From Chloroflexota bacterium (lineage in GTDB: Bacteria > Chloroflexota > Anaerolineae > UBA4142), in assembly GCA_016219275.1 (NCBI GenBank), contig JACRBM010000068.1:1-51987 (forward strand): 51,987 bases of DNA, read 5' to 3'. A program made the translations under genes and the position numbers. Numbering within the stretch: position 1 is the first letter of the stretch; each line of letters opens with the position of its first letter. The notes under the pieces were generated by a model. That model was not told the origin of the DNA. It worked only from the letters and a program-made list of their open reading frames with translations, and made no database searches. Positions 28,874-35,179 of the stretch are shown here, in pieces.

Positions 28874-29452
28874 ATGAGCGCCATACCTCAAACGATAATC
28901 GAAACCGCGCAAGCAAAAACCAAAATCACCGGCGAAGAACTGCTCGAGATGGGCGATATTGGACGATGCGAACTCATCGAAGGAGAAATCATTAACATAG
29001 CACCGACCGGAGAAATGCATGGCATCGTTGAGTTCAATTTGGGAGGAGAAATCCGTGCGTTTGTCCGCCAACACAAACTGGGACGCGTCAGCGGCGGTGA
29101 GGTCGGCATTTTCATTCGACGGATGCCGGACACAGTACGCGGCGCTGACATTGTTTTTATCTCAAACGAGCGACTGGCAAATCGCGGTAAATCCGGTTTC
29201 CTCGACGTTGCGCCGGATTTGATCGTCGAGGTCCTGTCGCCGGATGATCGCTGGAATCAGGTCACGCGCAAACTCGAAGATTATTTTTCGATTGGCGTGC
29301 GCCTCGTGTGGGTGGTGGATCCAGAAAACGAAATCGTGCATGCGTACCGCGCGCTGACGGATATTCGCTGTTTCGGCATCGAAGACACCTTGACCGGCGA
29401 CGACGTGCTGCCTGGTTTCACCATCTCACTCGCCGATGTGTTCGCAGAATAG
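28874..29452 (+). CDS. Uma2 family (DUF820) putative endonuclease
   Basis: 192 aa, the usual Uma2 length. ITGEELLEMGDIGRCELIEG and NIAPTGEMHGIVEFNLG are the family start. The PD-(D/E)xK core is visible as RGADIVFIS (Asp), PDLIVEVLSPDD (Glu) and VTRKLEDYFSIGVRLVWVVD (Lys). Uma2 proteins are abundant in Cyanobacteria and Chloroflexota and may be linked to mobile elements; their cellular role is unproven. It has its own promoter and an AAAGGAG ribosome-binding site, and ends 9 nt before the FIST gene. Confidence 0.93.
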   Translation: MSAIPQTIIETAQAKTKITGEELLEMGDIGRCELIEGEIINIAPTGEMHGIVEFNLGGEIRAFVRQHKLGRVSGGEVGIFIRRMPDTVRGADIVFISNERLANRGKSGFLDVAPDLIVEVLSPDDRWNQVTRKLEDYFSIGVRLVWVVDPENEIVHAYRALTDIRCFGIEDTLTGDDVLPGFTISLADVFAE

Positions 29453-29461
29453 AAAGCGACG

Positions 29462-30655
29462 ATGAACGAAACAGTACTCTTTGCTTCTGCCACCGCGCAA
29501 GGACGCGATATTAGCGAAACGACGCGCGCGCTTGCAGAAAGCATCCTCAATCAAATCGGTCACCTGCCGGTGAATTTGCTGATCGCGTTTCTCTCGCCGC
29601 ATTTCGCGCGCGGATCGGTTTTCGTCGCGGATAATTTGCGCGATGCGTTGCACCCACGCGTGATGCTGGGTTGCACCGCCGAAGGCGTCATCGGACGCGA
29701 CGCCGAAATCGAGCGCGAACCGGCGATCACCGTCGTCGCCGCGCACTTGCCGGCGGTCGAATTAGTTCCCTTCGCGCTAAACCCCGAGGACTGGGACGCG
29801 ACGCTCAAAACCCGCGTGCCCTTTGAGCAGACACTCGGCGCACCGCGCGATACGCGTTTATTTGTGTTGCTCGCCGATCCGTTCTCGACGCCAATGGACC
29901 GCGTGCTCGACGCGTTCAATCGCTTTTATCCCGGCGTGCCGATGGTCGGCGGCATGGCGAGCGGCTCGGCGCGCGCGAAAGGCAATTCGCTGTTGTTGAA
30001 CGAGCGTGTGTTTATCGAAGGCGCGGTCGGCGTCGCCTTGCGCGGCGCGTTCGAAGTGGATGTCGTCGTGTCGCAAGGATGTCGTCCGATCGGTCGCGCG
30101 TTCACCGTGTCGAACGCGCGCGAGAATGTGATTTACGCCATCGAAGGCGAACCGCCGCTGCCGCAGATTCAAAGTCTGATCGAACAACTCGCGCCGAGTG
30201 ACCGCGCGCTGCTCAACAACGGTTTGTATGTTGGGCGCGCGATTGACCCGACGAAACCCGACCTGGGTCGCGGCGATTTTCTCGTGCGCGGATTGGTGGG
30301 CGTGGATCACGAATCGGGCGCGATTGCAATTGGCGATCATGTTCGCGCCGGCGAAACGATTCAATTCCATTTGCGCGATGCGACGACCGCAACCGAAGAC
30401 CTCGAAATGCAGTTGACGCCGCAAACCTTTTTCGATCAACCGAGTGGCGCGCTCGTCTTTTCGTGCAACGGACGCGGCACGCGCTTGTATCCGCATCCGA
30501 ACGGCGACATCCAAACGATTCAAAGCGTATTGGGCGGCGTGAACCTTGCCGGCTTTTTCTGCGCGGGCGAGATTGGACCGATTGGCGGTAAAAATTTCTT
30601 ACACGGTCAAACCGCGAGCATCGCATTGTTTCGTCCGGCAAATCCTACGTCGTAG
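29462..30655 (+). CDS. FIST N / FIST C domain signal protein
   Basis: 397 aa. The N-terminal FIST domain shows LLIAFLSPHF, MLGCTAEGVIG and VPMVGGMASGSA; the C-terminal FIST_C domain shows SLIEQLAPSD, DFLVRGLVGVDHESGAIAIG, GALVFSCNGRG and GFFCAGEIGPIGGKNFLHGQ. FIST proteins are predicted cytosolic sensors of small ligands such as amino acids and often feed two-component or second-messenger systems. No output domain is fused here. It starts 9 nt after the Uma2 stop and is probably co-transcribed. A terminator hairpin follows at 30722. Confidence 0.93.
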   Translation: MNETVLFASATAQGRDISETTRALAESILNQIGHLPVNLLIAFLSPHFARGSVFVADNLRDALHPRVMLGCTAEGVIGRDAEIEREPAITVVAAHLPAVELVPFALNPEDWDATLKTRVPFEQTLGAPRDTRLFVLLADPFSTPMDRVLDAFNRFYPGVPMVGGMASGSARAKGNSLLLNERVFIEGAVGVALRGAFEVDVVVSQGCRPIGRAFTVSNARENVIYAIEGEPPLPQIQSLIEQLAPSDRALLNNGLYVGRAIDPTKPDLGRGDFLVRGLVGVDHESGAIAIGDHVRAGETIQFHLRDATTATEDLEMQLTPQTFFDQPSGALVFSCNGRGTRLYPHPNGDIQTIQSVLGGVNLAGFFCAGEIGPIGGKNFLHGQTASIALFRPANPTS

Positions 30656-30752: not shown

Positions 30753-31280
30753 TTATTCCAATGCCTGACCACACTCTTCGCGATAACCGCACGCGCGACA
30801 ACGGAACGATTCGACGTGATGACGCGGCACGTCACGCGCATCGAGATCAGCGCGCATCGCGTCCATCACCGCGAGCAACTGCGCGCGCAGCGCGTCGGTA
30901 AAATCCACCTGAAACACCGCGTCGCGATACTTGAGCAAACCGTACGGCGGCGCGACGCGCTGCGTCTCTTCGATCAACAATCCGTACGCGGCGAGTTGCA
31001 ACACATCCGACTCGCGCGGCGCGGACGCGCGACGATTCGGTTTGACCTCGATGGGAATGACCGCGCCGTTGTGTGTGACGATGTAATCCGGTTTGCCGGT
31101 CAACGCGTATCGTCGCGAGAAAAGCGGACGCTCGACCTTTTCCCACGCGCCGGTGTCCGCGTACACCACGCGCGCGCCGAATGGCAACCCCGTCTGCGCG
31201 CGTTGCGTCCGCGCGGCAATCCGCACGACGAACGCGGCGAGCAAGGCGATCACAACCAGCGCGGCAAGGAGACCAGCCAT
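30753..31280 (-). CDS. Membrane-anchored Cas4/Dna2-like PD-(D/E)xK nuclease subunit
   Basis: 175 aa. It begins with a TM helix (GLLAALVVIALLAAFVV), then VVYADTGAWEK. The RecB-like nuclease core follows: TGKPDYIV (Asp65), VIPIEVKPN (Glu78, Lys80) and VLQLAAYGLLIEE (Gln95, Tyr99). It ends with CRACGYREEC (Cys161, Cys164, Cys170), the C-x2-C-x5-C triad that holds the Cas4 iron-sulfur cluster. The first cluster Cys and the motif-I His are missing here but are found in the small gene immediately upstream. The two probably form one nuclease anchored at the cytosolic face. No CRISPR array or cas1/cas2 lies in the window. ATG 31280 follows TTGAGGATCGCG; longer starts read through that gene. Confidence 0.8.
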   Translation of the reverse strand: MAGLLAALVVIALLAAFVVRIAARTQRAQTGLPFGARVVYADTGAWEKVERPLFSRRYALTGKPDYIVTHNGAVIPIEVKPNRRASAPRESDVLQLAAYGLLIEETQRVAPPYGLLKYRDAVFQVDFTDALRAQLLAVMDAMRADLDARDVPRHHVESFRCRACGYREECGQALE

Positions 31281-31288
31281 CGCGATCC

Positions 31289-31549
31289 TCAACGCGGCGA
31301 CAACAGCGCAAGCGCAAACGCGACGGCAAGCACAATCGCAAGAATCACGAGGAGGCGCGACGCGCGTTCGAGTACGCCGACACGATGCACCGCGCGTCCA
31401 TGTTCGACGTGGCGAGCAACCCCGGCTTGCATCTGGACGCGATTCGCGGACGCGACGCCGCAAACGCGATGCAGCCACCACGCGCGATGACAAAACATAT
31501 ACTCGCCGATCTCACTTGCACGGAGGACGCGCGAATCTTCTCCCACCAT
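31289..31549 (-). CDS. Small membrane partner carrying the N-terminal half of a Cas4-like fold
   Basis: 86 aa. ASEIGEYMFCHRAWWLHR matches the start of Cas4-type nucleases, where the first iron-sulfur Cys lies in C-x-R-x-x-W (here Cys20). QAGVARHVEHGR matches RecB motif I, G-x-x-x-H (His47). A TM helix (LLVILAIVLAVAFALALL) ends the protein. The next gene begins 8 nt downstream in another frame with its own TM helix and the rest of the nuclease. The stop codon of the upstream translin gene abuts this ATG (TAGATG), so the three are translationally coupled. A recent frameshift of one gene is the alternative, but each part has a credible start and TM helix. Confidence 0.75.
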   Translation of the reverse strand: MVGEDSRVLRASEIGEYMFCHRAWWLHRVCGVASANRVQMQAGVARHVEHGRAVHRVGVLERASRLLVILAIVLAVAFALALLSPR

Positions 31550-32185
31550 CTATTTCCCTCCCAACCTCTCCTCAAACTCGCGCAACCTGGCTTCGAGTTT
31601 TTCCTGCCGCGCCGCAATCGTCAAGTCGCCGCGCGTCCGTTCGAGCACACCACGCACCATGTCGGTGGTGCGGCGCAAACCGCCGGTCAGCGCGTCTGGA
31701 AAATCCATCGTCACGAGCAATGAGTAAATGTCTTCCATCGCGTCGAGCACTTTTTCGACGCGTTCGCTCGTATCGTGGCGAATGATGTCGAGCGCGTAGC
31801 GGCGCAATTCGCCAGCCGCTTCGCCGAGACCGTTGAGGTACGCCGCGTACTCGATGCCGAGCGCGTCCGGGTCAGGGATCGTTCCGCCGGTGATGAGCGA
31901 CGCAACGATGTTCGCTTCGGCAAATTCCTTGAGCGCGTCCTGCACGTATCCCGCGAAATACAAATCGGGATACGCGGCAACGTTCGCTTTCATTTGCGTC
32001 GCAATGTCCTTGGCGCGTCCCAGCAATTGCGCGGCGTCGGCATGTTCGGCGCGATGCGTCGCGCGAATCGAAAGCGCGCAGTGACGAATCAGTTCGCGCG
32101 ACGCGGCGAGCGCGGCGTCCCGCGCGGCATTCTTCGCTTCGAAACTGTGGCGAATCTTTTCGCCAATCGGATCAAGTGTTTGCAC
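31550..32185 (-). CDS. Translin family protein
   Basis: 211 aa, all-helical, the usual translin length. Diagnostic stretches are FAGYVQDALKEFAEANIV, GIEYAAYLNGLGEAAGELRR, DAMEDIYSLLVTMDFPDALT and GLRRTTDMVRGVLERTRGDL. Eukaryotic translin and TRAX bind and cut single-stranded RNA or DNA; prokaryotic members also form oligomers that bind nucleic acid, with unknown physiology. The start is GTG 32185 behind AAGGAG. It lies 12 nt after the chromate-transporter stop, and its own stop touches the start of the split Cas4-like pair. A joint nucleic-acid role with that nuclease is inference from the gene order. Confidence 0.9.
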   Translation of the reverse strand: MQTLDPIGEKIRHSFEAKNAARDAALAASRELIRHCALSIRATHRAEHADAAQLLGRAKDIATQMKANVAAYPDLYFAGYVQDALKEFAEANIVASLITGGTIPDPDALGIEYAAYLNGLGEAAGELRRYALDIIRHDTSERVEKVLDAMEDIYSLLVTMDFPDALTGGLRRTTDMVRGVLERTRGDLTIAARQEKLEARLREFEERLGGK

Positions 32186-32197
32186 AAAGGTCTCCTT

Positions 32198-32785
32198 CTA
32201 ACGATAGATGATGAATCCCAGCGCCGCCGCGCCCAGGATGATGAACACCGGATTGATATCGGTAAACGTGAACAAACCGAACGAGACAATCGCCAGCGCG
32301 AGTTTATCCCAACTCTGGGCGATCCCGGCGCTCCAACCCAATTTTTTCGCGTTCAACACCGTAAACGCCATATCGTACGCCGTCCACAACAGCAAGCCGA
32401 CGACGATCGGGCGCACCGCGGTAATCATGGATTTGAGCGCGGGCAAATCCTTGACGCCGAAAAACGCGACGACCATCACCAACATCAAGATCGTCGTCGG
32501 CAAAACCGTGCCGCCCGCCGCGGCAACCGCGCCCCCAACCCCGGCGAGTTTGTAACCGACATACGCGGACACTTGCGGCGCGATGGGACCGGGCAACGCG
32601 TTGCCCAACGCAACCGCGTCCGCGAATTCCTCCGGCGTTGCCCACGCCACCGGCTCACTCGCGCCCGGCGGAATCCATTTCGCCGATGTCACTTCGCGTT
32701 GCATCAACGCAAGCGATGCCGGACCGCCGCCCCACGAAAACATCGCCACGCGCGTAAAGAGAACGAAAATGTCCCACAACAACAT
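32198..32785 (-). CDS. Half-size chromate transporter (CHR family)
   Basis: 195 aa, one CHR domain. FSWGGGPASLALMQREV and VALGNALPGPIAPQVSAYVG are the family's conserved blocks, with about five to six TM helices. Short CHR proteins normally come as adjacent pairs that together form the exporter; no second half is present here, so it may work as a homodimer or with a distant partner. ATG 32785 follows GGAGGATGCG. It leads the translin/Cas4-like cassette. Confidence 0.9.
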   Translation of the reverse strand: MLLWDIFVLFTRVAMFSWGGGPASLALMQREVTSAKWIPPGASEPVAWATPEEFADAVALGNALPGPIAPQVSAYVGYKLAGVGGAVAAAGGTVLPTTILMLVMVVAFFGVKDLPALKSMITAVRPIVVGLLLWTAYDMAFTVLNAKKLGWSAGIAQSWDKLALAIVSFGLFTFTDINPVFIILGAAALGFIIYR

Positions 32786-33079: not shown

Positions 33080-33118
33080 GTGCATCACCCAATTTTGAAA
33101 AAATCGTGGGAAGAACAC

Positions 33119-35179
33119 ATGAGACAAAAACCTCGATGGCTGCATTGGTCCAGTCTGGTCCTTGCCGCCGCTTGCCTCCTCATCACACTCATCAGCACAT
33201 TCCCACACGCGGTCAAAAGCCAGGCACCGATCATTCTTTCACAGGTTGACGCGCCAACTGGTCCGGTGCCCAATGATTCGCTCCGCGCTATTTTCTCGAA
33301 CCTGGCGCCGAGCTCGATTCCGCGTGCCCGCGCGCCGCGCATTCCACCGCTTGGCACGACTATCGAAGGCATCCATTTCGATGAAAATGGTTCAAACAAT
33401 GGCGGTTGGTATTACATTCCGCCCGACCCAATCGGAGCAGTTGGATTGAATCATGTGGTCTCAGTCGTCAACACGTCAATCGAGTGGCACACCAAAGCCG
33501 GCGTTCAACAAAACAGTCAACGCCTCGGCAAGATTCCAACGGGCAATGCGGTAGGCAGTTTCTTTGCGAATCTTGCGCCGGTGAACGGATTGTTCGACCC
33601 CAAAGTCATTTACGATCAATCCAACAATCGCTTTATCGCGCTCGCGTTGGAAAAAACAGATACGGCATCTGGCGACGCATCGAACTCGTCACGCATCCTG
33701 GTCGCCGTGTCGGATGATAGCGATCCGAACGGTACGTGGTACTGGACCGCGATCAATTCGATGCTCAATCTTGGTGGACTGGATCGCTGGGCAGACTATC
33801 CTGGGTTGGCGGTGGATAGTCAAGCAATTTATGTGACCGCGAATATGTTCGGCTTTGGAACCGGCGGAGCATACGGCGGTGCGCGCTTGTGGATCATCAA
33901 CAAGACACCCTTTTACGCTGGCGGCGCGGCGTCCGTGAGTGTGTACGATCCGTCGGGCGCCGTAGGTCAAAGCGCGACAACGGCACAACCTACGCACATG
34001 TTTGGCACTCCTCCCGCCGGAGTCGGCACCTTTCTTGTACGTTATTCCGGCTTTAGCGATGGCACGAATGAATACTTGAGCATCATTCGCGTGGACAATC
34101 CTTTAAGCACGCCAACGTTTTCGCACCAATTTGTCAACGTGGGCAACATTGACAATACGACGATTAGTACCATGCCGGATGCGCCACAACCTGGAAGCGC
34201 GATGCTGATTGACACGGGTGACCGGCGCGCGCTGAACGTCGTTTGGCGCAACAATGCCTTGTGGGTGTCAACCACAATCATTCCACCTTCCGGTTCCGAC
34301 GCCGGTCAAGCGACGGCACATTGGTTTCGCGTGGACACGACGAATCTCGCGTCGCTTGCGATTGCCGATCAAGGCAACGTGGGCGGCAACGAAATAGATG
34401 CAGCGGCGTACACATTTTACCCTTCGATTACGGTAGATCAATCTGGGAACATGGCAATCGGGTTCGCGCTATCTGGCTCGAACACATACGCGGGGGCGTA
34501 CTACACGGGACGCCTCGCGACCGACTCGGCTGGAACTGTCCAACCGGTTCTGGCATTGGCAACCGGACAGGGGGTTTACGAACGCACCTTTGGGGGAACC
34601 AGAAATCGTTGGGGCGATTACAGCGGCGTCTCGCTCGATCCATCCGACCAAAATACATTTTGGATTTTCAACGAGTATGCCCTGACACCAGGCACGCCCA
34701 TCAATGGCGAGACTGGTCGCTGGGGAACGCGCTGGGGTAGCTTTATTTTTTCATCCACGCCAACACCCACCCCAACCAATACCCCAACTAACACGCCAAC
34801 CAGGACGCCGACAGCAACGAACACTGCGACAAATACGCCCACCAACACTCCCACCAACACACCAACTAACACGCCTACCAACACACGCACAAACACACCA
34901 ACTAACACGCCTACCAACACCCCCACCAACACTCGCACTAACACACCAACTCACACTCCCACCAACACACCAACTAACACACCAACCAACACACGCACTA
35001 ACACACCAACCAACACCCCCACCAACACACCAACTGCAACGTCAATCGTGACCAATACACCAACCGCAACATCCACTGCGACGGGCACGCCCACCAGTAC
35101 ACCCACCAGTACACCTACCAGGACTGGGACCCCAAGTGGAACTTTAGAATTCTACTATCTGCCGGATATTTCTAAATAA
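33119..35179 (+). CDS. Secreted protein with Thr-Asn-Thr-Pro repeat tail
   Basis: 686 aa. A signal peptide ([16 protein letters not shown], cleavage likely near VKSQA) precedes a roughly 500-residue domain. Stretches such as [58 protein letters not shown] and [14 protein letters not shown] resemble secreted beta-propeller-like proteins. From about residue 545 to 670 comes a [13 protein letters not shown]-type tail, a stalk or cell-wall linker common in Chloroflexota secreted proteins. The protein ends with FYYLPDISK, similar to the end of the protease at 42376. ATG 33119 follows GTGGGAAGAACAC. Its stop overlaps the convergent kinase stop by 8 nt. Confidence 0.85.
34755..35130 (+). repeat. 12-bp tandem repeat coding for Thr-Asn-Thr-Pro
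   Basis: Imperfect tandem copies of ACCAACACNCCN with drifting third bases and some Arg, His and Ala replacements. Such arrays readily change copy number. Confidence 0.9.

Follow-up and report, generated by a model that had tools for sequence, protein, structure and literature searches.

The nuclease domains of AdnAB and AddAB, Dna2 and EXO5 are each contained in a single chain, several of them fused to a helicase, and in several the fold takes an iron-sulfur form. The Cas4 proteins of CRISPR adaptation, for which structures of a type I-C Cas4 (PDB 8d3l) and a Cas4/Cas1 fusion (7mi4) are available, are likewise one chain, in complex with Cas1 and Cas2. Cas4 genes are also found on their own, and the available text of Hudaiberdiev et al. 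2017 (PMC5704561) places solo-Cas4 in many Chloroflexi.

The locus described here lies on contig JACRBM010000068.1 of a Chloroflexota bacterium, of which positions 1 to 51,987 were analysed and are termed the window. Computation shows a Cas4 that is split between two conserved, co-retained proteins, each with a transmembrane (TM) helix and with a predicted joint fold. From this we infer a heterodimer with a shared cluster, its activity and the pathway in which it would act.

The two genes and the division of the Cas4 motifs

The features of the locus are itemized in Table 1. For both ORFs the first-pass annotation is confirmed throughout, in coordinates and frames as well as in residue numbering and the placing of the TM segments. 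The TAG stop of the TRAX-like gene directly abuts the ATG of ORF1. The ATG of ORF2, at 31280, is in a different frame from ORF1, and a GAGG sequence overlapping the ORF1 stop is likely to be a ribosome-binding site. A longer form of ORF2 starting at TTG appears in the ORF listing because the frame remains open upstream. Beyond ORF2, and convergent with it, lie a Uma2 gene and then a FIST_N/FIST_C gene (28874-30655). On the other side, 33080-35179 encodes a 699-aa protein with a long C-terminal low-complexity tract (10 protein letters not shown), matched by DNA repeats at 34756-35034.

Table 1. Positions of the genes and motifs of the locus in the window
Feature	Position	Strand	Remarks
ORF1, N-terminal half, 86 aa	31289..31549	-	Cys20, motif-I His47, C-terminal TM helix
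ORF2, C-terminal half, 175 aa	30753..31280	-	N-terminal TM helix, catalytic core, Cys triad
Cys20 codon, ORF1, candidate first Fe-S ligand	31490..31492	-	Sequence; 53/53 named ORF1
His47 codon, ORF1, motif I	31409..31411	-	Sequence; 53/53 named ORF1
ORF1 TM helix, residues 66-84	31298..31354	-	KD 3.12
ORF2 TM helix, residues 1-19	31224..31280	-	KD 2.92
PD-(D/E)XK motif Asp65, Glu78, Lys80, ORF2	31041..31088	-	Near-invariant, best 80 of 153 loci
Q..Y motif Gln95 and Tyr99, ORF2	30984..30998	-	80/80 each, best 80 of 153 loci
Cys161-x2-Cys164-x5-Cys170 triad, ORF2	30771..30800	-	79/80 (best 80 of 153); other row a gap
8-nt spacer, ORF1 stop to ORF2 ATG	31281..31288	-	Sequence
TRAX/translin-like gene, upstream of ORF1	31550..32185	-	AfTRAX 3zc1, E 2.6e-26
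Chromate-transporter gene, first in minus-strand order	32198-32785	-	Followed by TRAX-like, ORF1, ORF2

ORF2 matches the cas4 profile TIGR00372 with 68.9 bits (cut-off 65) over profile positions 52-179, and PF01930 with 33.5 bits (cut-off 22.7). ORF1 alone matches TIGR00372 weakly, at 17.5 bits and below the cut-off, over positions 3-49. In a close homologue, L033, the halves occupy positions 3-54 (ORF1) and 52-178 (ORF2) of the 180 positions of the PADLOC Cas4 profile PDLC00943. This places the break at about position 52, beyond the motif-I helix. The best Cas4 structure matched by both halves is 8d3l_I, on which ORF2 aligns at positions 103-201 (E 5.9e-7) and ORF1 at positions 13-48 (E 0.24, not significant alone). 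The PADLOC matches are to Cas4, with otherwise weaker nuclease resemblances (DruK, Cas1-fusion). A profile-profile comparison of ORF1 with ORF2 revealed no mutual similarity, and the halves are therefore not duplicates of each other.

The first-pass annotation had held that the nuclease and iron-sulfur residues are divided between the two proteins, and this is what is found. The Cas4 motif set is complete only across both, with His47 in ORF1 and Asp65, Glu78, Lys80, Gln95 and Tyr99 in ORF2. Similarly, the four Cas4 cysteines of one candidate [4Fe-4S] cluster comprise Cys20 of ORF1 and Cys161, Cys164 and Cys170 of ORF2. As 21 ordinary Cas4s of this phylum are single polypeptides, the pair has a deviant architecture. 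The conserved motifs suggest that ORF1 and ORF2 together may have exonuclease or endonuclease activity. The 86-aa half is small and weak with respect to profile cut-offs, and is easily overlooked in annotation.

The pair across the Chloroflexota

Named genomes were scanned for relatives, with 153 obtained. The best 80 of these (L032-L111) were retained, and all are from Chloroflexota; the class is known for 48, and includes Anaerolineae, Caldilineae, Thermoflexia, Chloroflexia and Ardenticatenia. Among these best 80 of 153, Asp65, Glu78, Gln95 and Tyr99 of ORF2 are present in every case, Lys80 in 79 and each cysteine of the triad in 79, the remaining row having a gap. Cys20 and His47 are present in all 53 of the accompanying named ORF1 sequences. 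More divergent families depart from this in places. In a group of four families (f48, f68, f76 and f89) Tyr99 is replaced by Leu in 5/5; ORF1 is conserved there, with the gene order of the window. Family f59, which comprises many large genomes, is perhaps Ktedonobacteria. It too has the gene order of the window, with a longer and divergent ORF1 in which the motif-I His is unclearly aligned, with a gap in 7/10. Two C-terminal halves of this family (L204 and L208) have GKPSY or GKPAY at the Asp position instead of GKPDY, and are possibly catalytically inactive paralogues.

The ORFs lie side by side and add up to one Cas4, as they would had a single cas4 gene been interrupted by a frameshift or sequencing error, or begun to decay as a pseudogene. 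The first-pass annotation had named homologues occurring mainly as one uninterrupted protein as the observation that would make this a frameshift, and had suggested a search for the same two-gene order in other Chloroflexota. Among the best 80 of 153 loci, ORF1 is found in the stored flank of ORF2 in 54 (53 by a stricter ORF call), and in the sampled lineages the orthologues are encoded as a pair of genes, contrary to that condition. The two ORFs share a frame in 16 of these 54, about the one third expected by chance. Their spacing ranges from an ATGA overlap to 912 nt, and in 13 of the 54 about 630-910 nt separate the two profile matches; Pfam was applied to five of the intervening genes and identified four as L,D-transpeptidase-like and one as an FMN reductase. 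For the 26 loci without ORF1 nearby, 20 genomes were searched and ORF1 was located elsewhere in 18. In G029, a genome in a single contig, the coordinates put some 2.8 Mb between the halves. Since halves may be unlinked, in varied frames, or separated by gaps of 600-900 nt, a frameshift cannot explain the split. The near-invariance of the catalytic residues also argues against a broken gene, an origin that is thus exceedingly improbable. Instead, a single cas4 gene probably became two, once and early in Chloroflexota.

The ordinary Cas4s of the same phylum provide a control. All 21 are encoded by one uninterrupted open frame, and in an unrooted tree of 71 rows made by a quick method, the branch separating them from 50 C-terminal halves (including L215, for which no ORF1 is known) has an SH-aLRT support of 98. 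An unsplit form with TM helices was not present among the long open frames at seven loci matching ORF1; these frames run upstream or downstream of ORF1, without a match to ORF2.

Co-retention was analysed in 60 genomes of relatives, with a profile built from 23 ORF1 sequences. ORF2 relatives occur in 50 of the 60 (the window's own genome included), 48 of them at E < 1e-30, and ORF1 was found in 47. Both are present in 47 genomes, ORF2 only in one (G019), ORF1 only in none and neither in 12. In G019 the TRAX-like gene (C40:186-806, minus strand) stops near the end of the contig, where ORF1 would follow, so the missing ORF1 may be an assembly gap. When 400 genomes were drawn evenly from the phylum, 106 had ORF1 and 157 an ORF2-like sequence, the latter number including ordinary Cas4s. 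A match to the ORF2 profile is found in all 106 genomes with ORF1 except G119 and G377, and that of G205 is an ordinary Cas4. Conversely, ORF2 is present without a detected ORF1 in G463 and G067. Extra copies occur in two genomes. One genome (G278) has an intact pair together with a second ORF2-like copy interrupted by a stop (L217, contig C30), possibly a decaying duplicate, and another (G465) has two copies of ORF1, on contigs C1 and C22.

Membrane topology and predicted joint fold

TM segments were called from hydropathy only, as 19-residue windows exceeding a KD value of 1.6. As had been proposed, each half has one TM helix at the split. The segment lies near the C-terminus in 53 of 53 named ORF1 proteins and at the N-terminus in 80 of 80 ORF2 proteins (the best 80 of 153), so that each chain is a predicted single-pass membrane protein with one hydrophobic TM segment. 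The medians of the highest KD value for the two split halves are 2.68 and 2.64. For the 21 ordinary Cas4s the highest values range from 0.58 to 1.69, with one above 1.6; the helices on either side of the break, which ordinary Cas4s lack, thus provide a further argument against a frameshift. In the 15 residues before and after the TM segment the mean number of Lys plus Arg is 3.32 and 0.64 for ORF1, and 0.15 and 3.89 for ORF2. By the positive-inside rule this bias places both soluble parts in the cytosol, in keeping with the orientation that had been suggested.

Co-folding of the two proteins had also been suggested, and was carried out as a single chain. The halves of L033 are in frame across one stop, and reading this stop as Gly gives one chain. 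Its AlphaFold2 model, from a 99-row alignment of mostly single halves, has a pLDDT of 94.9 and a pTM of 0.90. It is predicted as one Cas4 fold, with the TM region forming a hairpin of two helices (36-82 and 88-119); the chain is artificially linked, and the covalent link favours assembly. The model superimposes on intact Cas4 (7mi4_A, chain 5-200) at 2.9 A for 181 residues, with Z 20.1, and matches 8d3l_I with Z 19.2. ORF2 of the window modelled alone has a pLDDT of 91.3, and its match to 7mi4_A is confined to 51-203 (Z 12.5 over 134 residues). In the last three blocks, containing the Cys triad, pLDDT is 77, 80 and 71 for ORF2 alone and 95, 95 and 88 for the joined chain; these are models of different homologues, ORF2 of L033 being 68% identical to that of the window.

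Alternatively the halves might not be one enzyme, ORF1 being the membrane partner of another protein such as the TRAX-like one, and ORF2 inactive or solitary. In several genomes (G014-G018, G025 and G027) ORF1 indeed remains beside the TRAX-like gene where ORF2 is on another contig. Against this, what is missing from one half is supplied by the other and all of it is conserved, their co-retention is near-perfect, and the C-terminal half alone is predicted less confidently at the Cys triad than it is in the joined chain of the homologue. We therefore consider separate functions very unlikely. Distances among the ORF1s and among the ORF2s are correlated with r 0.76 (n 48); the correlations with TRAX are 0.62 and 0.70, and the partial r after TRAX is 0.58. 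This one proxy lends modest support to co-evolution of the two halves.

Genomic context, proposed role and comparison with known systems

The window yielded no CRISPR array, in agreement with the first-pass annotation. There are 26 repeated 18-mers at CRISPR-like spacing, and those listed all fall within a tandem array near the contig end (51417-51913), comprising 9.4 copies of a 53-bp unit with two palindromes per unit. This array is not a CRISPR because it lacks variable spacers; no other of 53-bp period is among those listed in the window. A single cas1 is present in the window's genome, on a different contig, and PF01930 has no match there besides ORF2. The pair is thus not located with cas1/cas2 or an array, as a CRISPR-associated Cas4 is, and like a solo-Cas4 it lies outside CRISPR-cas loci. 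Of the 60 relatives, 36 have cas1, and 30 of these have the pair; so do 17 of the 24 that lack cas1. As it is common both with and without cas1 there is no dependence on CRISPR, and the independence of the pair from CRISPR is well supported. A mobile-element origin was considered and rejected, since 27 pattern matches in viral contigs gave no confirmed relative of ORF2. One partial ORF1-like match (L257) occurs in these contigs.

The fullest gene order is ssb-DUF3467-TRAX-ORF1-ORF2-nadK-recN. Of the best 80 of 153 loci, 49 have a TRAX-like gene no more than 4.5 kb from ORF2, 22 have DUF3467, 16 SSB, 14 NAD kinase, 10 HisS and 8 RecN, as raw counts uncorrected for contig ends. The TRAX-like gene is upstream of ORF1 in 49 of the 54 loci with ORF1 nearby. 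TRAX is present in 56 and DUF3467 in 25 of the 60 relatives, and both extend beyond the pair. As TRAX is commoner than the pair, the neighbourhood need not mean one pathway. DUF3467 was rejected as an obligate partner; it is absent from the window's genome and present in some genomes without the pair. The TRAX-like protein of the window carries the NCBIfam name 'haloacid dehalogenase superfamily' (NF011160), and its closest PDB entry is the archaeal AfTRAX. Its acidic residues E87, E90, E122 and E126, which we take to be the TRAX-catalytic positions, are present in 49 of 49 rows.

We consider it probable that the pair is one CRISPR-independent, Cas4-type nuclease assembled at the membrane, and propose for it a housekeeping role there. 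The N-terminal half would provide the motif-I His and one Fe-S cysteine along with the first helices, and the C-terminal half the catalytic Asp, Glu, Lys, Gln and Tyr with the remaining three cysteines. The TM helix at the break would tether each half, with the C-terminal end of ORF1 and the N-terminal end of ORF2 outside, and the two helices would pair as a hairpin. The cytosolic parts could then close into one Cas4 domain, with the active and Fe-S sites spanning the interface, so that DNA would be cut solely once both halves meet at the membrane.

A housekeeping role is suggested because the pair is independent of CRISPR, kept across the phylum and located beside a TRAX-like gene and, in some lineages, SSB and RecN. 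At the membrane the pair might process single strands or the ends of DNA, whether during repair, during recombination or when incoming DNA is handled. That the pair serves repair or recombination is suggested tentatively by its neighbours, and is the weakest step. The chances appear about even for the fuller reading, an ancient, phylum-wide enzyme with one active site and one [4Fe-4S] cluster across two membrane proteins, conditionally active on membrane assembly, and acting together with the TRAX-like nuclease in a CRISPR-independent pathway.

Two other roles would also suit a nuclease at the membrane. Its main role could be defence, with the DNA of phages or plasmids intercepted and degraded at its point of entry, and the accessible text of PMC10653904 provides a precedent in a Cas4-like nuclease of Synechococcus elongatus that lowers the transfer or maintenance of RSF1010 plasmids. 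Phylum-wide retention beside housekeeping genes and the lack of a confirmed ORF2 relative in viral contigs suggest no arms race; these points are not decisive, and we regard defence as rather unlikely. It could alternatively be a competence nuclease, processing imported single-stranded DNA. The SSB genes near 16 of the best 80 loci are consistent with this, as is a ComEC family member in 55 of the 60 relatives. However, 10 of the 12 genomes that lack the pair have ComEC as well, so that it does not discriminate, and competence is a little less likely than defence. If the membrane-assembled housekeeping nuclease is correct, the pair is a natural split-nuclease switch, and it becomes apparent what form the unexplained solo-Cas4 of Chloroflexi takes and among which genes (TRAX, SSB, NAD kinase and RecN) it is encoded. 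A non-CRISPR role of Cas4 would also become testable, with two small genes, a clear cysteine mutant and a clear topology.

The nuclease domains of AdnAB/AddAB, Dna2 and EXO5 are related to the pair in fold; to our knowledge they have neither the split nor the TM anchors. We know of no DNA nuclease that divides its catalytic residues and its Fe-S ligands over two membrane proteins. In the open-licence PMC literature, as represented by titles and the beginnings of abstracts, no split or membrane Cas4 was recognised, and what was available there on DUF3467 and TRAX held nothing on an ORF1/ORF2 system. PMC5424206, in its accessible part, concerns TRAX in archaeal SepRS operons, and the pair is not its subject. 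The solo-Cas4 of PMC5704561 resembles the pair in being encoded outside CRISPR loci, and those counted in Chloroflexi may be ORF2; the available text describes no two-protein or membrane form, and the words 'split' and 'transmembrane' are absent from it. The Argonaute-associated Cas4 family ACE1 (9iac, 9iab) shares with the pair the status of a non-CRISPR Cas4-family protein. It differs in its lower similarity (Z 11.3), one chain per PDB entry and, judging by the entry titles, its association with Argonaute. The pair also resembles the adaptation Cas4s of 8d3l and 7mi4. Once the halves are joined, the fold, the four Fe-S cysteines, the motif-I His and the PD-(D/E)XK and Q..Y motifs are common to both, whereas the pair consists of two membrane-anchored proteins encoded without a cas1 or cas2 neighbour.
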